From an uncultured bacterium (GTDB lineage Bacteria > Bacillota > Clostridia > Lachnospirales > Lachnospiraceae): DNA of 64,000 nucleotides. This document shows positions 55 to 43,899 of the stretch, one piece after another. Position 1 is the first letter of the stretch. Every line of letters starts with the position of its first letter. The DNA lies in NCBI GenBank assembly GCA_947647735.1, contig CANSLJ010000014.1, positions 1 through 64,000 on the forward strand, read 5' to 3'. A model generated the notes under the pieces. It was given only the letters and a program-made list of their open reading frames with translations, did not search any database and was not told the DNA's origin. The position numbers were made by a program, and so were the translations under genes.

Positions 55-183
55 GGATGGAAATTAATTTCTTCGTCGCCACGCTCTCGCTTCGTAAAAA
101 GCGTAGCGGACACTAAGCTCGTGAAGAACCTCGCTAAGTGCCGACGCTTTTTAAGAGGCTCCTTAAGAAATTAATTTCCATCC
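55..183 (+). repeat. Family A nested palindrome, copy 1
   Basis: Perfect 19-bp terminal inverted repeats (55-73 and 165-183) enclose a second, core hairpin at about 96-152 whose stem ends in A and T runs. The interior is almost identical to the reverse complement of copy 4 (43764-43899). Between these two copies the core stem shows paired compensatory changes (G:C to A:T and T:A to C:G). It lies between the 3' end of the ABC permease and the window edge. The A/T-flanked core could also act as a bidirectional terminator. I know no name for this family. Confidence 0.85.
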
Positions 184-24538: not shown

Positions 24539-25747
24539 TCAGTCTCCCCGTTTCCCAAACCACGCCTTCATCGCATCCAGCACCTGCACCAGTTCTTCCT
24601 CCGAGATAACATAGGGCACCATCGCATACATGCAGTTGAGGAACGGCCTGCTGAACACGCCTCTCTCATAGGCAAACTGCTGATATCCTTTCAGCGTATC
24701 CGCATCCTTCACCTCCACACAGACACAGCCGCCCATGATCCGCACTTCCCTTATCCGCTCATCGGAAAATCCCGCCATCTCGCGCCTTGTGATCTCCTCG
24801 ATCCGGCAGATCTTTGCCATGTAATCTTCCTGTTCAAAGAGCTCAATCGACTTCAGCGCCACGCTGCATGCCAGCGCATTCCCCATAAATGTGGGACCAT
24901 GCATCAGCGCCTTCTCGGGCTCATCGCCGTAAAAACCATCATACACCTTCTGATTCGCCACTGTCACCGCATGTCCGATATAACCGCCGGTCAGTGCCTT
25001 TCCCAGCACAAGAATATCCGGCAGTACCTTATCCGCCACAAAACGGTTCCCTGTCCGCCCGAATCCTGTTGCCACCTCATCAAAGATCAGCAGAACCCCG
25101 TACCTGTCGCAGAGCTCCCTCGCCCGCACAAGGAAAGAGAGATCATACATCCGCATACCCCCGGCTCCCTGCAGCAGAGGCTCCACGATAAAACAGTTCA
25201 GTTCCCGATGATGCTTCTCAAAAGCCTCCTCCAGTGCCAGGATCTCCGTGGGAATATGGATCACATCCTTTTTCTCCCCGTAGGCTTCCAGAATAAAATG
25301 ATAATCCTCATCATCCCCCACTTCCATGGTCTTAAACGTATCTCCGTGATAGGCATGGGTGAGGGAAAGCACCTTCGTCCGCTCCATCTCCCCGCGATTC
25401 ACATAATATTGCAGTGCCATTTTCAGCGCCACTTCCACGGCTACGCTCCCCGAATCGGAAAAAAAGCTGTAATTCAGATCTCCCGGCAGAAAACTCTGCA
25501 GTTTATCCGAAAGCCTCTGCACCGGCTCATGTGTCAGCCCGCCCAGCATCACATGGGAAAAAATATCCGCCTGTGACTTGATCGCCTCGGTCAGCACCGG
25601 ATGCTTATACCCGTGGATCACGCTCCACCAGGAGGAGACCGAATCGATCATCTCCCTCTCCGGCGTCCTCAACCAGACACCCTTTGCATCTATGATCCTG
25701 TAAGGATCTTTCATTGTTTTCATTTGCTGATATGGATACCAGATCAT
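24539..25747 (-). CDS. bioA: adenosylmethionine-8-amino-7-oxononanoate aminotransferase
   Basis: Pyridoxal-phosphate enzyme of biotin synthesis (402 aa) that converts KAPA to DAPA with S-adenosylmethionine as amino donor. The class III aminotransferase motif LLIFDEVATGFGRTG is present, and the PLP lysine is in VLGKALTGG. The N-terminal WYPYQQM and DSVSSWWSVIHGY are typical of BioA. It is the last gene of bioY-bioB-bioD-bioA. The bioD-bioA gap is completely filled by a Family B element (25769-25865) placed directly before the Shine-Dalgarno, so bioA translation may be separately controlled. Confidence 0.95.
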   Translation of the reverse strand: MIWYPYQQMKTMKDPYRIIDAKGVWLRTPEREMIDSVSSWWSVIHGYKHPVLTEAIKSQADIFSHVMLGGLTHEPVQRLSDKLQSFLPGDLNYSFFSDSGSVAVEVALKMALQYYVNRGEMERTKVLSLTHAYHGDTFKTMEVGDDEDYHFILEAYGEKKDVIHIPTEILALEEAFEKHHRELNCFIVEPLLQGAGGMRMYDLSFLVRARELCDRYGVLLIFDEVATGFGRTGNRFVADKVLPDILVLGKALTGGYIGHAVTVANQKVYDGFYGDEPEKALMHGPTFMGNALACSVALKSIELFEQEDYMAKICRIEEITRREMAGFSDERIREVRIMGGCVCVEVKDADTLKGYQQFAYERGVFSRPFLNCMYAMVPYVISEEELVQVLDAMKAWFGKRGD

Positions 25748-25768
25748 ACGCCAATCCCCCTTCTATTC

Positions 25769-25865
25769 CAGTCCCGCATCATCCCTCCCAGCACCAGATA
25801 AGCAGAGAAATTTGCGGTCGCTTACACGCCCACAAATTCTCTGGGCACTGTACGGGATGATGCTG
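25769..25865 (-). ncRNA. Family B structured element before bioA
   Basis: On the coding (minus) strand: CAG, 9-nt arm (25862-25854), GTA, CAGTGCCCAGAG, a variable hairpin, TCTCTGC, GGTGCTG, GGA, complementary 9-nt arm (25785-25777), CGGGA, CTG. It shares all the fixed words with the tandem pair at 33409-33611, while the 9-bp outer helix is wholly different but still perfectly paired. It begins 1 nt after the bioD stop. Its end is 21 nt before the bioA ATG, with GAATAGAAGGGGG following directly. A cis-acting RNA or a palindromic mobile element are both possible. I recognise no known class. Confidence 0.65.
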
Positions 25866-25866
25866 A

Positions 25867-26550
25867 TTATTCATACAACGCCGCCAGCTTCTCGACCTCA
25901 ATATCCAGCTCCCCGCTGCTATCCTCCACGCAGGCGATCACCGGCAGTTTTGTCCTGTATTCGCACATCCGCAGATTATCCTCCTCCATCTGATCCCCCG
26001 GATGAAAATGGTTGAAGATGATCCCCTTCACCGGCAGGTCTTTCGCCCTCATATACTCCACTGTCAGTACCACGCTGTTTATCGTGCCCAGCCCTGCATC
26101 CGCCACGATCAGGCTCGATAATCCCAGCTCTTTTATCACGTCCTCCAGCCAGAGTTCCCTCTCATCAAAACAAATCGGACACAAAATCCCTCCGCTTCCC
26201 TCCATCGTCACAAAATCATACTTCTGACAGGCCTCCGAAAACCCTCTCTTCACCTCTTCCATCATCACTGGATCTCCTTCTATCCTCGATGCAAGATGAG
26301 GAGACACAGCCGTCTCGTAAATATAAGGGCACATTTCCTCAAGAGACTGAGAAATCCCCGAAACATTCTTTACCCAGAGGGCATCCCCCGGGATCAGCTT
26401 CCCGTCCGCCCCCCGTTCGTTTCCGCTCATTGCCGCCTTGTAATAAGCGGCGCTCAGACCGCTCTCCTTCAGTTTTTTCACGATCAGACCTGTCACAAAG
26501 GTTTTCCCCACGTCCGTTCCTGTTCCTGTGATAAAAATTTTTTTACTCAT
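25867..26550 (-). CDS. bioD: dethiobiotin synthetase
   Basis: ATP-dependent enzyme that closes the ureido ring of dethiobiotin from DAPA and CO2. The protein has 227 aa, the usual length. P-loop GTGTDVGKT is at residues 9-17. MEGSGGILCP is the conserved substrate and metal-binding segment. The ATG at 26550 is used; the longer form adds ten unmatched residues. The gene overlaps the end of bioB by 8 nt, consistent with translational coupling. Confidence 0.95.
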   Translation of the reverse strand: MSKKIFITGTGTDVGKTFVTGLIVKKLKESGLSAAYYKAAMSGNERGADGKLIPGDALWVKNVSGISQSLEEMCPYIYETAVSPHLASRIEGDPVMMEEVKRGFSEACQKYDFVTMEGSGGILCPICFDERELWLEDVIKELGLSSLIVADAGLGTINSVVLTVEYMRAKDLPVKGIIFNHFHPGDQMEEDNLRMCEYRTKLPVIACVEDSSGELDIEVEKLAALYE

Positions 26551-27553
26551 TGCAAAGCCTCGCCTCAAATCCCAACTCATGAATCAATGCCATATCCGTT
26601 TCCACCGTGATTCCCGCCGTTGTCAGCATATCTCCGGAGATTGCCGCATTGGCGCCGCTCAGAAAGCATGCCTTTCCTTTATCCCCCACCAGGCCTCTTC
26701 CGCCCGCCAGCCGGATCGACGCATCCGGGATCAGAAACCGGAAAACCGCCACACACCGGCACGCTTCGTCATTGGTCAGGGGTTTCCGCTTTTCATAGGG
26801 CGTACCCGGAATCGGATTCAACAGGTTTACCGGAATGGACTTCACGCCCAGCTCCCGCGCTGTCAGCACCATATCGATCCGGTCCTCCATCGTCTCCCCG
26901 AGTCCCAGAATCCCCCCGGAACAGATCGACAATCCCGCTCTTTTCGCCGCCTTCAGCGTCTCGATCTTCTCCTCGTATGTATGGGTGGTACAGACCTCGG
27001 GAAAGTACCTTGCCGAAGATTCCAGATTACAGTGCACTCTCGACGCCCCCGCCTCCCTGACCTTGCGGAACTGTTCCTCATCCAACAGGCCGAAAGAAAC
27101 ACAGACTTCTATAGATGTTTCCTCCCTGATCTTTCGTATGCTCTCACATACCTGATCCACTTCTTTCTCCGAGAGCCGCCTGCCGGAAGTCACAATGGAA
27201 TACCGCAGAACCCCCTGCTCTTCATTATGTTTTGCGCCCTCCACCAGCTCTTTTGTGGAGAGCAACGGATAGGTTTCCTCGCACGCCGTATGATAATGTG
27301 CGCTCTGGGCACAGTATTTACAGTCCTCCGAGCACCTGCCGCACTTCCCGTTGACGATCGTACAGATATCGAAACCGTTCCCGCAGATTTTTTTCCGGAT
27401 CTCATCCGCCGCCTCCTGCAGTTCAGAGAGAGGTTCCTCCAGAAGCTGCAAAGCTTCCTGCTTCTCTATCTGCTCTCCCCGTAAAACTTTTTCCTTCATT
27501 CTCTCCGTAAAACTCATGTCCTCATTCATCCCATCCTTACTCAAAACATTCAT
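26543..27553 (-). CDS. bioB: biotin synthase
   Basis: Radical SAM enzyme (about 336 aa) that inserts sulfur into dethiobiotin. The cluster-binding motif CSEDCKYC (C-x3-C-x2-C) is followed by the second-cluster and substrate residues expected of BioB. The start is uncertain. ATG 27553 has no clear ribosome site, ATG 27529 (MNEDMS) follows AAGGATGG, and a GTG at 27559 is also in frame. It lies 40 nt downstream of bioY, in the same operon. Confidence 0.93.
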   Translation of the reverse strand: MNVLSKDGMNEDMSFTERMKEKVLRGEQIEKQEALQLLEEPLSELQEAADEIRKKICGNGFDICTIVNGKCGRCSEDCKYCAQSAHYHTACEETYPLLSTKELVEGAKHNEEQGVLRYSIVTSGRRLSEKEVDQVCESIRKIREETSIEVCVSFGLLDEEQFRKVREAGASRVHCNLESSARYFPEVCTTHTYEEKIETLKAAKRAGLSICSGGILGLGETMEDRIDMVLTARELGVKSIPVNLLNPIPGTPYEKRKPLTNDEACRCVAVFRFLIPDASIRLAGGRGLVGDKGKACFLSGANAAISGDMLTTAGITVETDMALIHELGFEARLCNE

Positions 27554-27592
27554 CGGCACTATACGTTTTTTAACACGCTCCTGCCCGTGTCC

Positions 27593-28144
27593 TCACATCC
27601 GCATGATCGCCGGCCTCACCCGCTTCGCCAGCCCCGCCGCCAGAAAACAAAGACAGATATCCCCCGGCACCACCATCAGAAAGCAATACAGGATCAAAGG
27701 CCATATCCCGATCGGCGTGCCGATGACAAAATTGCAGATCACATAGTAATACACCATCCCGATTCCATAGACAATGGCAAGCCCGGCAAAATTCGCGATA
27801 AGGATCTTTCCGAAACTCAGCTTTTCCAGCTTCTCCACCATCTTCCCGGTCACATAGCTTCCCAGAATAAATCCCAGAATGTACCCGAAACTCGGCTTCA
27901 GCACATACCAGAATCCGCCGCCCTCCGCAAAGACCGGAAGTCCCACAAGCCCCAGCACCGCATACGCTCCCACGCTGATCGCACCGAGCTTTCCGCCCAG
28001 CAAAAGCCCTGCCAGCATCGTAAACAAAACCTGCAGCGTAAACGGAACCACCGGAACCGGTATCTTGATAAAAGCGCCCACTGCTGTCAGCGCCGTAAAC
28101 AGACTGCACATTGCCATTTTCTGAATTCTGCTCTTTTGTTCCAT
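27593..28144 (-). CDS. bioY: biotin transporter BioY
   Basis: Substrate-binding membrane component of the ECF-type biotin importer, 183 aa, about six hydrophobic segments. The family motif (PVPFTLQVLF, then PVFAEGGG) is present. The ATG at 28144 follows GGAAGTGGAG. It heads the biotin operon behind a BirA operator, so import and synthesis are repressed together when biotin is sufficient. The ATPase and EcfT parts are not nearby. In some bacteria BioY works with shared ECF modules. Confidence 0.93.
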   Translation of the reverse strand: MEQKSRIQKMAMCSLFTALTAVGAFIKIPVPVVPFTLQVLFTMLAGLLLGGKLGAISVGAYAVLGLVGLPVFAEGGGFWYVLKPSFGYILGFILGSYVTGKMVEKLEKLSFGKILIANFAGLAIVYGIGMVYYYVICNFVIGTPIGIWPLILYCFLMVVPGDICLCFLAAGLAKRVRPAIMRM

Positions 28145-28224
28145 ATTTTTTCTCCACTTCCTGTCCTGCCTGCAAAACCGGACATATCCTTTTCCCGTAA
28201 TCCAAAATATCAAAAAAAAAGCAG

Positions 28225-28257
28225 ATTGTCAACCATATATTATTTTTGGTTTACAAT
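28225..28257 (-). promoter_or_regulatory. BirA (biotin repressor) operator
   Basis: ATTGTCAACC and GGTTTACAAT form a 9-of-10 inverted repeat with a 13-nt centre. This matches the known BirA box (TTGTAAACC/GGTTTACAA type) and lies about 80 nt before bioY. It should repress the operon when biotinyl-AMP is bound to BirA. Confidence 0.85.
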
Positions 28258-28298
28258 CCACTTATCGATTTGATGAAATTGAACTTCCTGAACATCCC

Positions 28299-28991
28299 TC
28301 ACATAAATCCCGCAAAAACATTCGCCCCGATCACCGTCAAAATCCCCGATACCACAATGGACAGGCTGCTCATCGCTCCTTCCACAGCCCCCATCTCCAT
28401 CGCCTTCGCCGTGCCCACCGCATGGGAAGCCGTACCTATGGCGATCCCCTTCGCAACAGGCTCCTCAATCCTAAACACCTTGCAGACCGTCTCCGCGATC
28501 ATATTGCCCAGCACCCCGGTAACGATGATGACCGCCACCGTGACCGGCACAAAGCCCCCCAGCTCCTCCGACACGCCCATGCCGATCGCCGTGGTGATGG
28601 ACTTTGGCAGCATCGTCACATAGGACGCATGATCCAGCTTAAATAAAAACGCCAGAACCAGAATACTGCACAGGCTCGTAAGTACCCCAGAAACGATCCC
28701 CGCCAGCACCGCCCTGTAATTCTTTTTCAGCAGCTCAAACTGCTCATACAACGGCACCGCAAGGCAGACCGTAGCCGGGGTCAGCAGAAAGCTGATATAC
28801 TTCGCCCCTTCGTTATACACCTTATAATCGATCCGGCACACCAGCAAAAACAATATCGTGATCACGATGGCGATCAACAGCGGATTAAAAACCGGCAGCT
28901 TCCATTTCTTTTTTAACGACAACCCTATCCCATAGGAGATCAGCGTGATGAGTACCCCGAAAAACACGGATGTCTCAAAAAATCCATTCAT
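28299..28991 (-). CDS. lrgB: LrgB/CidB-family membrane protein
   Basis: Membrane protein of 230 aa with about six to seven hydrophobic segments, including the family segment SITTAIGMGVSEELGG and the C-terminal GIAIGTASHAVGTAKA. LrgAB and CidAB systems influence murein hydrolase export, cell lysis and, in some species, pyruvate uptake. It lies 4 nt downstream of the lrgA-like gene. In other Firmicutes LytSR controls this operon. An Agr/LytTR-type pair lies 5 kb away here, without proven link. Confidence 0.92.
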   Translation of the reverse strand: MNGFFETSVFFGVLITLISYGIGLSLKKKWKLPVFNPLLIAIVITILFLLVCRIDYKVYNEGAKYISFLLTPATVCLAVPLYEQFELLKKNYRAVLAGIVSGVLTSLCSILVLAFLFKLDHASYVTMLPKSITTAIGMGVSEELGGFVPVTVAVIIVTGVLGNMIAETVCKVFRIEEPVAKGIAIGTASHAVGTAKAMEMGAVEGAMSSLSIVVSGILTVIGANVFAGFM

Positions 28992-28995
28992 ATCC

Positions 28996-29361
28996 TCACC
29001 CTCTCCCTTCTTTTTTCTCAGAGCGCCGCATCACAGACTGCACCACTCTCCCTGCCACCGCCATGACCAGTACCGTGGATACCGCCGTGATCACCAGATA
29101 GGGAACCCATGCAGTTTTGATGATCTCCCAGGAATCGATCAACCCCACCGCCGCCGGGATAAACATGATCGGCATGATCTCGATCAGAAAGCTGCTTGTC
29201 TCCTTCACCGCAGATACCTGGATCACCTTACACTCCAGACATAAAAATAGAAGCACAATGCCGTATATGCTCGCCGGAACCGGCAGCGGCAGTACTTCAT
29301 GCAGTATCTCCCCGATAAAAGAGATGAGCAGTATCATTCCAAATTGTTTTACATATTTCAA
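28996..29361 (-). CDS. lrgA: LrgA/CidA-family holin-like protein
   Basis: Small membrane protein of 121 aa with four hydrophobic segments. The family motif LPLPVPASIYGIVLLFL is near the N-terminus, with FIPAAVGLID in the third segment. It starts at a TTG preceded by GGGGGGAA; no in-frame ATG is available. It forms a two-gene operon with lrgB. Confidence 0.9.
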   Translation of the reverse strand: MKYVKQFGMILLISFIGEILHEVLPLPVPASIYGIVLLFLCLECKVIQVSAVKETSSFLIEIMPIMFIPAAVGLIDSWEIIKTAWVPYLVITAVSTVLVMAVAGRVVQSVMRRSEKKEGRG

Positions 29362-29437
29362 ATCATTCCCCCCTTTGCAATAAATGGTATCAGTTCAACT
29401 TATCACGCATTATCTTTCCCGTCAATCATAAAAATTC

Positions 29438-30334
29438 TCAGAATACATCCCATAAATGTACTGTCCTTCCCGTCCTCTTCCTGTACTCTTTCGGAGAATA
29501 ACCGGTCATTTTTATGAACTGCCGGTTGAAATTGGAGAGATTGCCATACCCGCATTCAAAGGCTACATCCGAAACCTTTTTTTCTGTGGAGGAAAGCATC
29601 TCACAGGCGGCATTGATGCGCAGTTGTATCAGATATTCCACGGCACTGACACCGGTCGATCTTTTAAAACAGTTCATAAAATAACTTTTACTGAGATGCG
29701 TGGTCCCGGCAAGCTCTGACACCGTAATATTTTTCTTATAATTCCCCATCATATACTCCAGTGCGGGACGTATGATCTCGCAATAGTCAACTTCTCCATC
29801 TTCCCGGCGGACACACTCCTTATCCGTCTCCAGCATCCAGAACAATCTCATCAGCTCGCTTTTTAACAGCAGATCGGCATGGGCAATGCCGCCGTCCGCA
29901 CAGGAAAAGATCTGTTCCACGTATGACTTCACAGGCGCATAATTCTCCGCCTCGCCGGAAACCATTGTACGGATCCTGACAGTACCGCTCATCAGAGGAC
30001 GAACAGACTCCGCCGCACACCGGTCGCCCGCGCCTGCTCCCAGCATTGACGGATGAAATACAAATGCCCGATAGATCAGATCGCTTTCCGGCGCCGGATA
30101 AGCCCCGTGCAGCATATTGGGCAGTATGATAAATATATCTCCTTTTACAGCCTGATGCCTGTCGCTCCCGCATATAAATTCTCCCGCCCCCTGCAGAACA
30201 TAATTTATCTCAAATTCACTGTGCCAGTGTATAGGCACATTCGCAAAATCATACGGAATCCGGCATTCATAATAACTGTATGGTATATAGGCCGTACTAT
30301 GTTGCTTTCTCTCTTCTGTGTCTTTTCCCGGCAT
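29438..30334 (-). CDS. AraC-family regulator, cupin N-domain
   Basis: Regulator of 298 aa divergent from the GH31 gene. A cupin sensor with metal-type histidines (PIHWHSEFEIN) lies at about residues 30-110. The C-terminal AraC DNA-binding domain contains VAFECGYGNLSNFNRQFIKMTGYSP. The ATG at 30334 follows GGGAGAGG; the longer ATG at 30367 lacks a site. It is likely to activate the GH31 gene in response to a xylose- or glucose-containing sugar (inference). Confidence 0.88.
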   Translation of the reverse strand: MPGKDTEERKQHSTAYIPYSYYECRIPYDFANVPIHWHSEFEINYVLQGAGEFICGSDRHQAVKGDIFIILPNMLHGAYPAPESDLIYRAFVFHPSMLGAGAGDRCAAESVRPLMSGTVRIRTMVSGEAENYAPVKSYVEQIFSCADGGIAHADLLLKSELMRLFWMLETDKECVRREDGEVDYCEIIRPALEYMMGNYKKNITVSELAGTTHLSKSYFMNCFKRSTGVSAVEYLIQLRINAACEMLSSTEKKVSDVAFECGYGNLSNFNRQFIKMTGYSPKEYRKRTGRTVHLWDVF

Positions 30335-30458
30335 GACGCCTCTCCCTTCTCTTAAAAGTATTATCATATCATTTATTCATACTATTCGAATAGATTTTCC
30401 CGGACAATAATAGTATCATATCATCACATGGATATTTATACAAGATAGGAGGCCTTTT

Positions 30459-32483
30459 ATGAAATTTGAAAACGACAACGGCGCACTGGTATTCCATCAT
30501 CTGGGAGAGCATGTCAGGATCGAGGCTTGGGGACCGGATTCTCTTCGTGTGCGGGCAGGGATGCTGCATAAATTCACCGGAAATGACTGGGCTCTGACGG
30601 AAACAGTAAACAATTCCGGTACAAACATCACCATCGCCGAAGAAGATCATTACAGGGGAGACGGCACATTTGATAAAAAGGAAATCGCTTCCATTACAAA
30701 TGGCCGGGTAAAGGCAGTTGTTAATTTTGCAGGCATCATCTCCTTCTACAAAGATGATCAGCTCATCCTGCGCGAATACTTCCGCAACTATGATGGAACG
30801 CTTTCAAGGGAAAGCCGCTGTCTGAAAATAACCGGACGTGAATGGAAAGGAATCATCGGCGGTTCCGAATATGCGTTGAACGTAAAATTCGAGAGCAACA
30901 AAGGCGAAAAGATATTCGGCATGGGACAATATCAGCAGAACTGCATGGACATGAAAGGCTGTGTACTGGAACTGGCACAGCGCAATTCCCAGATTTCTGT
31001 TCCCTTTGCCGTATCTTCCCTGGGTTACGGATTTTTATGGAACAATCCGGCCATAGGGCGTGTGACCTTCGGCAAAAACTACTATGAATGGATCGCAAAC
31101 TCCACCAGGGAAATGGACTATTGGATCACCGCCGCGGATACGCCAAAACAAATATTAAATAATTACACTTCCGTAACTGGACATGCCGGAATGTTTCCGG
31201 AGGATCTGATGGGATTATGGCAGTGCAAGCTGCGCTACAGAACGCAGGACGAAGTGTTGAGCGTTGCCCGGCAGTACCAGAAGGAGGGCATCCATATCGA
31301 CCAGATCGTCATCGACTTTTTCCACTGGACCCTGCAGGGCGACTGGAAGTTTGACAAAACATACTGGCCTGATCCGAAAGCAATGGTAGATGAACTCCAC
31401 TCCATGGACATCAAGGTGATCGTATCCGTATGGCCTTCCGTGGACCGCCGAAGCGAAAACTTCCTGCCAATGATGGAAAAGGGACTCCTGATCCAGACAG
31501 AGAGAGGAGCTGCGCAGACTTACGACTATCAGGGGGACTGCGTGGAGATCGACGTTTTTAATCCTGAGACAAGAAAATATGTGTGGGAAGTCTGTAAGAA
31601 AAACTACTACGACTATGGTATAGACGCATTCTGGCTGGACAATTCCGAACCGGACTACGGTGTATACGACTTTGACAACTACCGCTACTGCGACGGGCCT
31701 GCCCTTGCCCTCAGCAATATCTACCCCCAGCTCTTCTCCCGTACCTTCTACGATGAGATGAGCAAAGACAAAAACTTTTCTGCCGTCAACTTGCTGCGCT
31801 GTGCTTGGGCCGGTTCCCAGAAATACGGCAACGTGATCTGGTCCGGCGATGTGCCCAGCACCTTTGAAGCTTTTGCGGATCAGCTCCAGTGCGGACTGAA
31901 CATGGGACTGGCGGGGATTCCCTGGTGGACGACGGATATCGGCGGCTTTATGACCGATGATGTAAACGATCCCGATTTCAGGCAGCTCCTCATCCGCTGG
32001 TATCAATTTGCGGTATATTCTCCCGTACTGCGTATGCACGGAGACAGGGGTCCTTATAACATCCCGCCGCTGGACGAACGCGACTGGGGCGGCGGCTATC
32101 TGCATACCGGACAGCCCAATGAATTATGGAGTTACGGCGAAGATAATTATGCTATCATGAAGAAATATTATGATGTGCGCATCTCCATGCATGACTATAT
32201 CAAGAGCCTGTTTGAGGAAGCCGGCACAAACGGCTCCCCGCTGCTCCGCGCCATGTTCTATGAATTTCCCGGGGATGAAATATGCTGGGAACTGCAGGAT
32301 CAGTATATGTTCGGCGACAGATATCTGGCGGCGCCGATCCTCCATCTGAATGAATTTAAGCGGGATGTTTATTTACCGGAAGGACGCTGGATGCTGACCT
32401 CCACCGGGGAAATCTATGAGGGCAGCCGCGTTGTCAGCGTGGCTGCACCCATTGATTATATGCCAGTGTTTGAGAGAATGTAG
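30459..32483 (+). CDS. alpha-glycosidase, GH31 (alpha-xylosidase-like)
   Basis: Cytoplasmic retaining alpha-glycosidase of 674 aa without a signal peptide. The nucleophile is in FWLDNSEPD (D394) and the acid/base in WSGDVPSTF (D464). Further along, the conserved GGFM and RMHGDRGP segments fit GH31. The overall sequence looks closest to bacterial alpha-xylosidases, but alpha-glucosidase activity cannot be excluded. AGGAGG precedes the ATG. It is the only gene of its transcription unit and is followed by a strong terminator. Confidence 0.9.
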   Translation: MKFENDNGALVFHHLGEHVRIEAWGPDSLRVRAGMLHKFTGNDWALTETVNNSGTNITIAEEDHYRGDGTFDKKEIASITNGRVKAVVNFAGIISFYKDDQLILREYFRNYDGTLSRESRCLKITGREWKGIIGGSEYALNVKFESNKGEKIFGMGQYQQNCMDMKGCVLELAQRNSQISVPFAVSSLGYGFLWNNPAIGRVTFGKNYYEWIANSTREMDYWITAADTPKQILNNYTSVTGHAGMFPEDLMGLWQCKLRYRTQDEVLSVARQYQKEGIHIDQIVIDFFHWTLQGDWKFDKTYWPDPKAMVDELHSMDIKVIVSVWPSVDRRSENFLPMMEKGLLIQTERGAAQTYDYQGDCVEIDVFNPETRKYVWEVCKKNYYDYGIDAFWLDNSEPDYGVYDFDNYRYCDGPALALSNIYPQLFSRTFYDEMSKDKNFSAVNLLRCAWAGSQKYGNVIWSGDVPSTFEAFADQLQCGLNMGLAGIPWWTTDIGGFMTDDVNDPDFRQLLIRWYQFAVYSPVLRMHGDRGPYNIPPLDERDWGGGYLHTGQPNELWSYGEDNYAIMKKYYDVRISMHDYIKSLFEEAGTNGSPLLRAMFYEFPGDEICWELQDQYMFGDRYLAAPILHLNEFKRDVYLPEGRWMLTSTGEIYEGSRVVSVAAPIDYMPVFERM

Positions 32484-32550
32484 GTGTTTTACAGCAAATC
32501 GGAAATAAATGACTCTTGAAAAACACCTTCTGTCATAAACAGCCTCAAAA

Positions 32551-32588
32551 AAGCAGCCTCACCTACCAGAGTCAGGCTGCTTTTTTTC
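32551..32588. terminator. bidirectional terminator between GH31 and coiled-coil genes
   Basis: A perfect 10-bp stem (AAAGCAGCCT with AGGCTGCTTT) is flanked by an A run on the left and seven Ts on the right, in the gap between convergent genes. Confidence 0.88.
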
Positions 32589-32618
32589 ACACTTTATCTG
32601 TTCTGAAACATCCCTGTT

Positions 32619-33392
32619 TTACAGCCTGACGTCCACATAGATCCCCGGCATTTTTTCGGCATTCTTCTCCGCCTTTTCCTCAGCGTTTTCCCCCTCGTCC
32701 ATTTTCCCGCTGCGCAGATCCGTCTCTCTTGTTCCGTTCTCCGGCTCTGCTCCTGCTGCTTCTTCCTTCCTGGCCTGCAGATCCGTCTTTTCCGCTCCGC
32801 TCTTCTGTTCAGTTTCCGATGCCTCCCGGAGCCTTCGGCCGGCTTCCTTCAGCGTCTCCTGTCCCAAAGCCTCCGCTTTTGACGCCCGCTCTCTTATCCC
32901 GGCAAGCTGTGCTTGTTTTGCCTCCACGGCAGTGCCTCCTCCATCCTGCTTGATCTCGGCCTCCAGAACATTGGCCCTGCCTTCCAGGCTTTCGGCTGTG
33001 CTGTGCTGTATCTTTGCCTGTTTCAAGGACGCATCCGAGGAAATCACAGCCTGCATTCCAGCCGATGACATCTCGGCTCCCTGTCCCTGTTCTTTCTGTT
33101 TTCCAGCTGATGTGCTTTCACGGGACGCCCGCTTCTCCTCCTGCTCCTGTCTTTTTACCTCCATCTGATGCTGTCTGAGCTGCATTCTCAGATCGCTGAT
33201 CTCCTTCTGGATCTCCTGTCTCCTTTTCATTTTTTCTTCGCCGCTCAGTTCTCCATTCGCAGAAATCTCCTGCAGCTGTTTCTGCGCATCCGTGATCCGC
33301 TTCTGGATATTCCTGCTCTCCGCATCCATCGCTATCCCTGCTCCCGCAGATGCCGGCTGAGAAGTGCCTGCACTGATACCATTGATGTTCAT
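32619..33392 (-). CDS. coiled-coil protein of unknown function
   Basis: Very charged, Glu/Lys/Gln-rich protein of 257 aa. It is predicted to be largely alpha-helical, with heptad-like spacing at about residues 25-90 and 140-200. It has no signal peptide, no membrane segment and no cysteine. The N-terminus (MNINGIS..) and the early coiled coil resemble FlxA-like small proteins of Lachnospiraceae (weak recognition). GGAGG precedes the ATG. Its entire leader consists of two tandem Family B elements, suggesting RNA-level control. I do not assign a function. Confidence 0.75.
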   Translation of the reverse strand: MNINGISAGTSQPASAGAGIAMDAESRNIQKRITDAQKQLQEISANGELSGEEKMKRRQEIQKEISDLRMQLRQHQMEVKRQEQEEKRASRESTSAGKQKEQGQGAEMSSAGMQAVISSDASLKQAKIQHSTAESLEGRANVLEAEIKQDGGGTAVEAKQAQLAGIRERASKAEALGQETLKEAGRRLREASETEQKSGAEKTDLQARKEEAAGAEPENGTRETDLRSGKMDEGENAEEKAEKNAEKMPGIYVDVRL

Positions 33393-33408
33393 TTTGTTTC
33401 CTCCATTC

Positions 33409-33611
33409 CAGTTCCGTAACCGAGCTCTCAGTACCCTTTTCCCGCAGAGAAAATCCTGTCTGTTTCACAGCCAGTCTCTCCTCTGGGGCACTGATCGCTC
33501 GGTTACTGTTTCCAGTTCCGTAACCGAGCTCCCAGTACCCTTTTCCCGCAGAGAAGATCCTGTCTGTTTCACAGCCAGTCTCTCCTCTGGGCACTGATCG
33601 CTCGGTTACTG
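33409..33611 (-). ncRNA. tandem pair of Family B structured elements
   Basis: Two units, 33409-33508 and 33513-33611, differ by a few bases and are joined by GAAA. Each reads on the minus strand CAG, arm TAACCGAGC, GAT, CAGTGCCC, AGAG, inner hairpin, TCTCTGC, GGTACTG, complementary arm, CGGAA, CTG. Fixed words match the bioA element (25769-25865). A possible -10 TATTAT at 33630-33625 would start the transcript just before the first unit. The last unit ends 16 nt before the ATG, directly followed by GAATGGAGG. The rest of the 33393-33722 gap holds no gene. Confidence 0.65.
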
Positions 33612-33722
33612 TTTCCAGTTTCGTATAATATGAATTTCTTCATATCTCATTTCGGAAGCCATAAAACAGAACTGAACCGTTATGTAGCGAAGCGCCCTTT
33701 TTCGGTTGTGAAGCGCAGGAAA

Positions 33723-35099
33723 TCATGATCCGTTCCGCATTAACATAACCGTCAGCTTAAATGTCTCACTATCCTGCACTATATCAATATCGCCATAATA
33801 CTTCTGTGCCGCCCTCCGGATATTCACAAGCCCGAACCCATGGTCCGCCCCCGTCTTTGTCGTGGGCGGCAGGCCGTTTTCCCTATCTATATTCCTTATC
33901 CCCGCCGCACTGTTTTCGATCTCGATCATACAGGCATTTCCGGCAGGGTAGGAGGAGACCGAAACACGGGCATCCCTGCACTCTCCCGCCGCTTCCAGTG
34001 CATTATCCAGCGCATTGTTCAGGATAACGCCGACATCGAACGCACTCACCCCCGCACCCTCCGGAAAATGAAACCGGTTCTCAAAGACGATCCCCCGCTC
34101 CTGCGCCTCTTTCTGCTTCTCCCGCAGGATCACATCCGTGACCGGATTGCCGCTCCTCATATCCGGCAGCACTGTGCTCACCTGCTCCTTCAACTGCCTG
34201 AGATACTTTCCCGCCTCCTCGTTCTCCCCGCACAATCTCTCCAGCGTCATCACATGATTTCTCATATCATGCTTCAGACTGCGGATATCAAGGTATAGTT
34301 TTTCCACTTCACTGATATGCTTCTTCATATCTGCGGTCTGCCCTGCCAGCACCGCATCTTCCTTCTCCCGCCTCTGGCTTTCCTTGATGCGCTGCCATAA
34401 AACAATAACGGTCAGCACCGCAGCGAAAGCGGTCAGCATATAAAGTCCCTGAAACCAGCTGTAACTGCCGTGCCTGTGCCATATATATTGATCAGTATCT
34501 TTTTCATATGCATTGACCGCAAACTGAAATATTCCCTGGCCTGCGATGATGGAAAACAGCGGTGTCAGCGTCAGCGCAAGCTCTCCCTTTGTCATGTTTT
34601 CCATTTTGTATCTGTACTCTCTGTGAATGATCCTGATACAAAGTGCCATGACAATACAATGCATCGCAAGATTCATCGCTTCCATCACGATATACAATAT
34701 AAACTGTACAATAACATTACCCGGCGCGCCGGAAAATAAAAGCAGCATATCATACAATGTTTCCCAGGGTGCCAGCATGATCCCCCAGGCAGCATAGATC
34801 AGCAGATAAAATGCCACAGCCAGAAAGATCTTCTGCTCCCCGCTGCGCCGGTCTATGAGATAGATCCCCCAAAATGCCGCTGCCACGCCGACAGTATGAG
34901 CAGTCATCCCGCCTATCTCTCCCGGCCATGCCATCTGTATCAGCATGGGAACCGCATAACTTCCCCACACCAGCGTCATATGTTTTTTATTTTCCAGAAA
35001 AGGCTTCACAAAACTGCACAAAAAGCATGCCCTGATAACGATCATACCCGCCAGCGACATATTGGAAACCAGATCCCAGTAAAAATCCCAATCCGTCAT
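33723..35099 (-). CDS. sensor kinase with GHKL domain, AgrC-like
   Basis: Membrane sensor of 458 aa with about six N-terminal hydrophobic segments (residues 15-225), then a coiled linker. The H-box is LKHDMRNHVMTL, the N-box NNALDNALEAAG, and the G-box region DHGFGLVNI. This is the AgrC/LytS-like HPK10 type that phosphorylates a LytTR regulator, here encoded immediately upstream with a 4-nt overlap. No AgrB/AgrD peptide genes are visible, so the signal is unknown. Confidence 0.9.
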   Translation of the reverse strand: MTDWDFYWDLVSNMSLAGMIVIRACFLCSFVKPFLENKKHMTLVWGSYAVPMLIQMAWPGEIGGMTAHTVGVAAAFWGIYLIDRRSGEQKIFLAVAFYLLIYAAWGIMLAPWETLYDMLLLFSGAPGNVIVQFILYIVMEAMNLAMHCIVMALCIRIIHREYRYKMENMTKGELALTLTPLFSIIAGQGIFQFAVNAYEKDTDQYIWHRHGSYSWFQGLYMLTAFAAVLTVIVLWQRIKESQRREKEDAVLAGQTADMKKHISEVEKLYLDIRSLKHDMRNHVMTLERLCGENEEAGKYLRQLKEQVSTVLPDMRSGNPVTDVILREKQKEAQERGIVFENRFHFPEGAGVSAFDVGVILNNALDNALEAAGECRDARVSVSSYPAGNACMIEIENSAAGIRNIDRENGLPPTTKTGADHGFGLVNIRRAAQKYYGDIDIVQDSETFKLTVMLMRNGS

Positions 35100-43763: not shown

Positions 43764-43899
43764 GACTGTGTGGAAATTAATTTCTTAAGGAGCCTCTTAA
43801 AAAACGCCGGCACTTAGCGAGGTCCTTTCGAGCTTAGTGTCCGCTGCGTTTTTTACGAAGCGAGAGCGCGGCGACGAAGAAATTAATTTCCACACAGTC
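43764..43899 (-). repeat. Family A nested palindrome, copy 4
   Basis: Perfect 23-bp outer arms (43764-43786 and 43877-43899) containing AAATTAATTT as in copy 1. The A/T-flanked core hairpin is at about 43797-43854, reading in the minus direction. It lies between the MBL-PTS promoter and the LacI gene. The remaining part of the 43595-44042 gap holds the operators and promoter listed separately. Confidence 0.85.

Follow-up and report, generated by a model that had tools for sequence, protein, structure and literature searches.

A sense-strand hairpin repeat abutting Shine–Dalgarno elements in Lachnospiraceae, probably a non-autonomous mobile element

Introduction

Small mobile intergenic repeats, among them YPAL/RU-2, Correia, RUP, CIR and ERIC/RU-1, are about 100–170 nt long, occur in many non-coding copies and have filled and empty sites, as described in the available part of a review (PMC2229807). 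For the repetitive extragenic palindromes (REPs), the accessible portion of a survey (PMC12306157) contains no occurrence of Lachnospir- or Clostridi-, and one of Bacillota. Here we analyze a 64,000-nt stretch from an uncultured Lachnospiraceae bacterium (positions 1 to 64,000 of contig CANSLJ010000014.1, assembly GCA_947647735.1; hereafter the window), which holds three copies of a hairpin repeat. Many further copies exist in the same genome and in some relatives; most of the strong ones in this genome are in sense orientation, with the 3′ end against a Shine–Dalgarno (SD) element. We find that this repeat is probably a non-autonomous mobile hairpin, with a habit of inserting next to the SD and a sense-strand fold that appears to be under selection.

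Mobile hairpins are also known from organelles, where mitochondrial GC clusters, double-hairpin elements and translational bypassing elements are tolerated because their RNA folds aside. Those hairpins lie in organelle genomes, some of them within reading frames, whereas the element described here sits between genes at bacterial SDs.

Results

Structure of the element

The unit runs from a run of adenines plus CAG to CTGGAAT, spans ∼103 nt, and comprises a variable outer helix (P1, 9–10 bp), a conserved helix (P2) and a variable inner hairpin. In each window copy, P1 has 10 bp and is followed by an internal loop, P2 (CAGTGCM with KGTRCTG), an inner hairpin whose 3′ side includes unpaired nucleotides, and the tail CGGAACTGGAAT. 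Each copy, taken at nearly its full bounds, was folded alongside 200 shuffled versions; none of the shuffles folded as well, which makes chance folding unlikely for all three. Further copies were first found in the own genome by blastn with one copy, and 15 copies were used to build an alignment (A2) and a covariance model (R1). At E ≤ 0.01, R1 finds exactly these three copies in the window, with no fourth. Their coordinates are as follows, with R1 scores and fold z-scores.

25765..25865, minus strand: copy 1, complete hairpin element of 101 nt between bioD and bioA (91.8 bits; z −6.08)
25854..25863, minus strand: copy 1, 5′ arm of outer helix P1, 10 nt, pairing with 25776–25785; the helix covaries among copies
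25776..25785, minus strand: copy 1, 3′ arm of P1 (fold and covariation)
25844..25850, minus strand: copy 1, 5′ side of P2, CAGTGCC (fold and covariation)
25789..25795, minus strand: copy 1, 3′ side of P2, GGTGCTG (fold and covariation)
25765..25775, minus strand: copy 1, conserved 3′ tail, GGGACTGGAAT; most of 30 aligned copies read GGAACTGGAAT (alignments)
33405..33508, minus strand: copy 2, complete hairpin element of 104 nt, the SD-proximal member of a tandem pair (101.5 bits; z −8.65)
33509..33611, minus strand: copy 3, complete hairpin element of 103 nt, the upstream member of the pair (94.6 bits; z −7.60)

A first-pass annotation, made on the window alone, had described the same words in the same order on the minus strand at both loci, with arms that differ in sequence between the loci yet are fully paired. 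All of this was found as claimed, and other details were revised. Three copies are indeed present, but copies 2 and 3 stand in tandem (98% alike along an 82-nt repeat) and so do not count as independent evidence. The conserved order, thought to end in GAAW, extends to CTGGAAT. With the revised end, 4 nt later, the distance to the ATG is 17 nt for bioA and 12 nt for the gene starting at 33392, rather than 16–21 nt; the sense orientation and the proximity to the ATG stand. Placement directly before the ribosome binding site holds for copy 2, the only one of the pair to abut an SD, but not for copy 1, where the G-run begins 4 nt after the element, nor for copy 3, which lies upstream of copy 2.

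Covariation was assessed in the 30 best copies of the window's own genome. Standard pairs fill 99.0% of 509 cells in 17 pairs, compared with 78.1 ± 1.2 in shuffles, and 14 of the 17 pairs, spread over both helices, have changed on both sides. The covariation score is 0.615, versus 0.213 in shuffles and at most 0.078 in slid versions of the alignment. There are 39 G-U cells, 25 of them at one P2 position, and no A-C cells; therefore, the sense strand is the folded one, either as RNA or as single-stranded DNA. In a wider set, the minimum free energy of the sense strand is below that of the antisense strand in 173 of 176 elements, and the 165 with readable arms carry 115 distinct 9-nt arms. Together with the strand counts given below, these data support the first-pass view of conserved joints and covarying helices, sense to the downstream gene.

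Comparisons between relatives suggest how the arms change. At one junction of the own genome (C22:57532), the own genome (G000) and a relative (G006) have the variant GGTACTGGAATAGAGGT in common, while their arms are unrelated but paired. Hence, judging from the alignment, arms can evolve faster than flanks. One copy common to G005 and G008 (L116 versus L123) shows several base differences in the 3′ arm, which is unpaired there in G008. Two copies of the own genome (C35:12639–12736 and C1:170896–170974) have lost their asymmetric loops, and their outer part is now a near-perfect palindrome, as expected from quasi-palindrome correction.

Copy number and spread

The own genome (4.1 Mb in 63 contigs, 86.6% complete) gave 77 R1 matches at E ≤ 1. 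Three are reverse readings of others, leaving 74, of which 45 score at least 60 bits and are called strong copies here; 150 of 1943 candidates were scored, so these counts are lower bounds. A scan of 61 related genomes (E ≤ 0.001; 65 candidates scored per genome, such that values of 65 are lower bounds) found seven of nine members of the genus positive, the own genome included, with 11 to at least 65 matches each and none in G002 or G004. One genome from another genus of the family, G021, had at least 65 matches, and the remaining 51 had none. Across the family (250 genomes, 16 candidates scored in each, E ≤ 1e-4), 5 of 250 genomes and 4 of 249 genera were positive.

A search of 397 genomes for a pattern of tail plus SD gave 20 matches in G000, 17 in G007, 13 in G021 and one each in four further genomes; the reversed control occurred twice. 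This pattern overlooks variants, as G205 and G277 have R1 matches and no pattern match. Scanned through a named collection, the pattern matched at least 114 stretches. Record titles among the listed matches name Lachnospiraceae, Clostridia or bacteria, including Acetatifactor muris DSM 23669, and some of the genera named are, we presume, Lachnospiraceae. To judge by the record names, most come from rodent guts. As for a link to phages, two stretches of a viral collection also match, a count for which no control pattern was used.

Rfam models at gathering scores matched only a tRNA in the whole window, and over 25500–34000 nothing on the copies matched at E ≤ 10. These scans also served as the test for attC-like integron sites. 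Neither the element nor SD-abutting repeats are described in the literature searched, as represented by titles and the beginnings of abstracts, with few subscription journals and preprints. This is a real family, new as far as the literature and Rfam comparison reach.

Position relative to genes

We counted a start codon when it lay within 60 nt downstream and opened a reading frame of at least 60 aa, and a stop codon when it lay within 200 nt upstream. Among the 45 strong copies of the own genome, 40 have a same-strand start codon, 36 of these with an SD, and 41 have a sense stop codon, in 14 cases within 5 nt. On the antisense strand, a start with an SD is seen for none of the strong copies. 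Among the 40, a few belong to arrays and are followed by a chance open reading frame (ORF), e.g. C14:33509 and C22:58437. For all 74 matches, the corresponding numbers are 62 with a start, 54 with start and SD, 67 with an upstream stop and 0 with an antisense start and SD. An even spread over both strands, unconnected with start codons, had been named as the observation that would speak against the first-pass reading; 36 of 45 sense versus 0 of 45 antisense is the opposite result.

The contact with the SD is close. An SD-like word begins 0–3 nt past the element end in 32 of the 45 strong copies. Five of the others are followed by another copy, one has no SD within 45 nt, and seven have the SD further on, at 4 nt for window copy 1 and past a second tail or another repeat for the rest. 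Twelve of the 74 matches lack a start; by eye, five of these are array members or remnants, three precede another small repeat and two precede short ORFs (57 and 50 codons). Reduced forms, consisting of the outer hairpin only or the tail only, are also found at SDs.

In relatives, 134 of 161 model matches were examined, with 27 weak or cut rows excluded. Because 74 of the 134 carry the search pattern, SD included, they are uninformative on position. The other 60 include 28 with an SD-bearing start and 22 that belong to arrays. The last 10, judged by eye, comprise five array members, two matches followed by a copy, one followed by another repeat, one adjoining an N-run and one with a weak-SD start.

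Genes downstream of the element have little in common. Forty-four downstream ORFs were listed, and the 15 named by family search are unrelated, with no common pathway: bioA, argB, nusA, cmk, secD and purM, and a FlxA-like protein, an Rnf-Nqr subunit, a POR domain protein, an AAA-ATPase-like protein, DeoC, HpaB, an aminotransferase, a 2-hydroxyacid dehydrogenase and a class II tRNA synthetase. Over 264 kb of the own genome, using crude gene calls, the upstream neighbor is co-directional for 17 of 21 genes with the element versus 104 of 149 SD-bearing genes without it, a weak difference.

Filled and empty places

To ask whether the SD is native, we need the surroundings of the window copies, listed here. 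Copy 1 lies in a bioB-bioD-bioA run, with bioB upstream.

25756..25760, minus strand: probable SD of bioA, GGGGG, 4 nt past copy 1 (sequence)
24539..25747, minus strand: bioA, downstream of copy 1 (TIGR00508, 478 bits)
25867..26580, minus strand: bioD, upstream of copy 1, its stop codon ending 1 nt ahead of the element (TIGR00347, 148 bits)
33400..33404, minus strand: SD of the downstream gene, GGAGG, common to relatives without the element (G006 and G007 read ACAGGAGGAAAA there)
32619..33392, minus strand: FlxA-like gene of unknown role, downstream of copies 2 and 3 (PF14282, 46.6 bits)
33612..33624, minus strand: degenerate 3′ tail of an older copy, ACGAAACTGGAAA, adjoining copy 3 upstream; absent at the same place in G006 and G007
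33723..35099, minus strand: GHKL-type histidine kinase gene, upstream of copies 2 and 3 (PF14501, 71 bits)

Same-genus genomes were compared at both window loci and at five further junctions, on contigs C2 and C22 of the own genome. The contrasts are between species at 80–90% identity, not between strains. Filled and empty sites are both present. At the tandem pair, the element-free G006 and G007 read ACAGGAGGAAAA before the ATG; aligned, the junction is ACA|GGAGGAAAA in these two and AAT|GGAGGAAAC in the window. In G003, an unrelated hairpin repeat ends right at TAGGAGGAAAA. The C22 deoC junction reads AAACATAA|AGGAGAATGATTATGG in G006, which has another insert and no element, and CTGGAAT|AGGAGAATGATTATGG in G000 (an array) and G003 (the tail only). 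At C22:57532, G001 and G007 are empty with AGGAGGTGCAGAG, and G000 and G006 are filled with AGAGGT. A tail-only site in another lineage shows the same pattern: AATAATGAAAC|AGGGAGGTATG in L149 versus CTGGAAT|AGGGAGGTATG in L237.

The second C2 junction is filled in G000, G003, G006 and G007. There, the element-free G004 has a gap with AAGGAG, and the genes of G002 nearly overlap. For the bioD-bioA gap, G004 is the one relative compared; there (L305, about 1334–1447) the gap has no element and is filled by ∼25-nt direct repeats resembling CAGGAATGAACTGAAAAATAA.

Arrays, dispersal and neighboring repeats

Similar copies lie ahead of different genes. Two own copies, at C2:129695 and C22:42746, are 94% identical and have different downstream genes. 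In the metagenome-assembled genome S30_Bin3, the copies at L131 and L195 are 95% identical with downstream flanks 52% alike; their upstream flanks are 83% alike and have a further hairpin unit in common. Nine copies from ten loci of this genome (loci L208, L214 and L234 being left out of the count) are pairwise 77–95% identical, and their downstream flanks are 42–61% alike, values for which there is no random control. The upstream flanks of five copies are more alike owing to the shared hairpin unit.

Arrays are common: directly upstream of 20 of the 45 strong own copies lies a complete or truncated 3′ tail belonging to a different copy. By eye, the SD-adjacent copy is usually intact, whereas truncation is frequent in the members upstream of it. 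Arrival of new copies at the SD would have this outcome, and so would tandem duplication with later decay. Truncated and internally deleted forms of the element occur as well. The element ends show only CAG and CTG, with a run of adenines ahead of CAG in 27 first or single own copies; the junctions are too diverged for a target duplication to be read.

Other repeats lie close by. A hairpin unit ending GTCGCGCAGCGACTT directly precedes either a copy of the element (five places) or an SD (two places), that is, 7 of 10 places seen, and two more by eye. Unrelated hairpins thus have the SD-adjacent site in common. This unit occurs at the following places.

L307, 1207 and 1328 (minus strand numbering)
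L155, L162, L164, L195, L196, L199 and L208

A third small repeat with ACGAGCAAAAAGCGGAGCGTTTGCGAGT (L052, L086, L093, and L248 from 7276) follows tails of the element, and can itself precede a GGAACTGGAAT-like tail and an SD. Many copies of a second dispersed hairpin repeat, ∼130–150 nt long, exist in the own genome and in those of relatives. At each of its two window copies, the outermost arms (17 and 21 nt, judged by eye) are peculiar to the locus but complementary to each other, and the repeat looks as if seated in the loop of existing palindromes.

56..182, plus strand of the window: second dispersed hairpin repeat
43772..43891, minus strand of the window: second dispersed hairpin repeat
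L238, 18726..18874: second dispersed hairpin repeat
L240, 2754..2901: second dispersed hairpin repeat

Discussion

The first-pass annotation had offered a palindromic mobile element that lands before start codons as the alternative to a functional RNA, and our data support that alternative at least as well. It is favored by the dozens of copies, their presence and absence among related species, the arrays, and the truncated and internally deleted forms. Similar copies ahead of different genes, and 15 downstream genes without a common function, argue in the same direction. Our best reading is that the element spreads, or did so until recently, inside genomes belonging to a few genera of Lachnospiraceae.

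We envisage that the element inserts, or survives, almost solely at the 5′ edge of a native SD, in sense orientation, usually in a short gap between co-directional genes. Once folded, the ∼100-nt insert would no longer stand between the upstream stop codon and the SD that follows it. With the SD kept free and close to the stop codon, and the reading frames intact, operon expression could tolerate the insertion. In the tightest cases, only ∼25 to 35 nt outside the hairpin separate stop and start codons, which would hold the SD near the terminating ribosome. Copies that do not fold would be selected against or would fail to be mobilized; the folded sense strand may be needed for mobilization, for tolerance or for both. 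New copies would land at the SD and displace older ones upstream, where decay would follow. The insert may also weaken coupling between the two genes, as structure just past a stop codon goes with lower coupling according to the available part of a review (PMC12548453).

Several observations weigh against this interpretation. The number of further pair types among the 30 best copies (32) is matched by 5 of 500 shuffles, and the pairing statistics come from copies chosen by the model, which favors paired ones. When the wider set is read in a fixed register, only 88 of its 165 outer arms pair throughout, and the cells comprise 1303 Watson–Crick, 36 G-U, 11 A-C and 135 other combinations, register shifts included. 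Two of the 74 own matches (C5:32107 and C31:42641) have neither a visible start codon nor an array partner. No insertion was caught between strains of one species, the contrasts being at species level, and a target duplication could not be established. For the first and third C2 junctions, empty relatives do carry an SD, but their alignment in that region is loose. The second C2 junction has neither element nor SD in G005 and G008, which would fit either gain or loss. Because a native SD is clear at only some junctions, our confidence in mobility is slightly lowered. Moreover, orthologous places (the second C2 and first C22 junctions) are occupied in several species with different paired arms, and this would also fit in-place evolution under selection. 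Finally, no mobilizing enzyme was found; neither Y1 transposases nor reverse transcriptases track the element among the draft genomes tested.

A more specific version of the mobile hairpin model, which we hold only tentatively and consider doubtful, is that the SD itself is the insertion site. The constant 3′ terminus (CUGGAAU) of a sense-strand intermediate, RNA or single-stranded DNA, would be joined to AGGAGG at the 5′ edge of that word. The SD would then provide a strand-specific safe harbor available ahead of most genes. Such a route would explain why the 3′ end is fixed while 5′ truncation varies, and why the intact member of an array stands at the SD; other hairpin repeats at the same place, such as the GTCGCGCAGCGACTT unit, would use the same machinery.

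Should the mobile hairpin interpretation be correct, this is a repeat family whose safe harbor is the ribosome-binding site. Dozens of genes, argB, deoC and purM among them, would be translated from an SD with a ∼100-nt hairpin right ahead. How a mobile element comes to the SD, and how ribosomes handle a strong hairpin between stop codon and SD, would become testable questions.

Three other explanations were weighed. The element might instead be a host-selected cis-acting RNA of a large regulon, in which a protein or small RNA binds the hairpin and the GGAACUGGAAU tail and thereby sets translation or stability of many operon genes. The sense orientation, the near-constant distance to the SD, the strong covariation of the 30 best copies (G-U cells present, A-C cells absent), and the one place occupied with different but paired arms in G000, G003, G006 and G007 would all suit such a role. 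Yet the 15 named genes have no theme, related species differ in presence and absence, many truncated, internally deleted and tail-only forms stand beside SDs, and only 5 of the 250 genomes scanned across the family are positive at E ≤ 1e-4; we therefore regard a regulon as unlikely. 

It is less probable still that the element is an intercistronic insulator or mRNA-stability hairpin that recombination has spread and that persists because it protects the upstream mRNA or uncouples the genes. Such a role would account for the upstream sense stop codon of 41 of the 45 strong copies, within 5 nt in 14, and for the very stable folds, and it would agree with the correlation of post-stop structure with lower coupling in the available text of PMC12548453. 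Dispersal, arrays and close abutment of the SD are, however, left unexplained by an insulator role alone, and the excess of co-directional neighbors is weak (17/21 versus 104/149).

Least of the three do we expect a REPIN-like element, a REP-derived hairpin moved as single-stranded DNA by a Y1 transposase (IS200/IS605 or REP-associated tyrosine transposase, RAYT) that recognizes the hairpin on a single strand. Such systems typically show many copies of strand-specific hairpins, according to the accessible part of PMC3116915. Among 18 draft genomes tested for Y1 (PF01797), the element-positive G003, G006 and G007 have strong matches, but so do the element-negative G004, G011 and G036. The positive G001, G005 and G021 have none, and the own genome has only a fragment matching model positions 2–45, with incomplete drafts making absence uncertain. 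Hypervariable arms, 115 distinct among 165 elements, also speak against this view. Y1 was accordingly set aside as the mobilizer.

A reverse transcriptase acting on a target-primed retroelement was rejected as well: of 19 draft genomes tested for RVT_1 (PF00078), matches were found in the positive G000, G003, G005, G006 and G007, and none in the positive G001, G008, G021 and G205. A weak RVT_1 match in G000 (C35:4865–5395) lies within a 1011-aa open frame, perhaps a retron or defense-type reverse transcriptase. An autonomous version, in which the arms would enclose an ORF, was also considered; the loci examined gave three distant arm pairs, which resemble chance pairings of the arm common in those genomes. 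A single-pathway riboswitch is unsupported, given the unrelated downstream genes and no Rfam match on the copies; covariation, sense orientation and a position before the start codon are, as a caution, no proof of a riboswitch.

Comparison with known systems

Like a riboswitch or other cis-regulatory leader, the element is a covarying sense-strand structure directly ahead of an SD. Unlike a riboswitch, it has dozens of copies per genome, ahead of unrelated genes and many of them inside gene runs, and matches nothing in Rfam. With REPs and REPINs associated with RAYTs, it has in common the many small, intergenic, non-autonomous hairpins per genome, as these are portrayed in the accessible part of PMC3116915. 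Set against two conserved inverted REP units around a spacer, the outer arms are hypervariable and the 7-bp P2 is a conserved inverted pair. It differs from these systems in that Y1 genes fail to track it in the 18 genomes and its arms are not conserved in sequence.

The small mobile intergenic repeats offer the nearest parallel in their many dispersed non-coding copies of less than 200 nt, foldable transcripts, and filled and empty sites, as set out in the available part of PMC2229807. That review describes TA-ended elements or dyad targets, and the terms Shine-Dalgarno, ribosome binding and start codon do not occur in it. By contrast, copies of the present element are sense, near the SD and hypervariable in their paired arms, and show no target duplication at the junctions compared. 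The closest known kinds are therefore the small mobile intergenic repeats and the REPINs; the element behaves like the first and lacks the transposase link of the second. Among small mobile hairpin repeats, what is unusual about it is the rule of its site, next to the SD.

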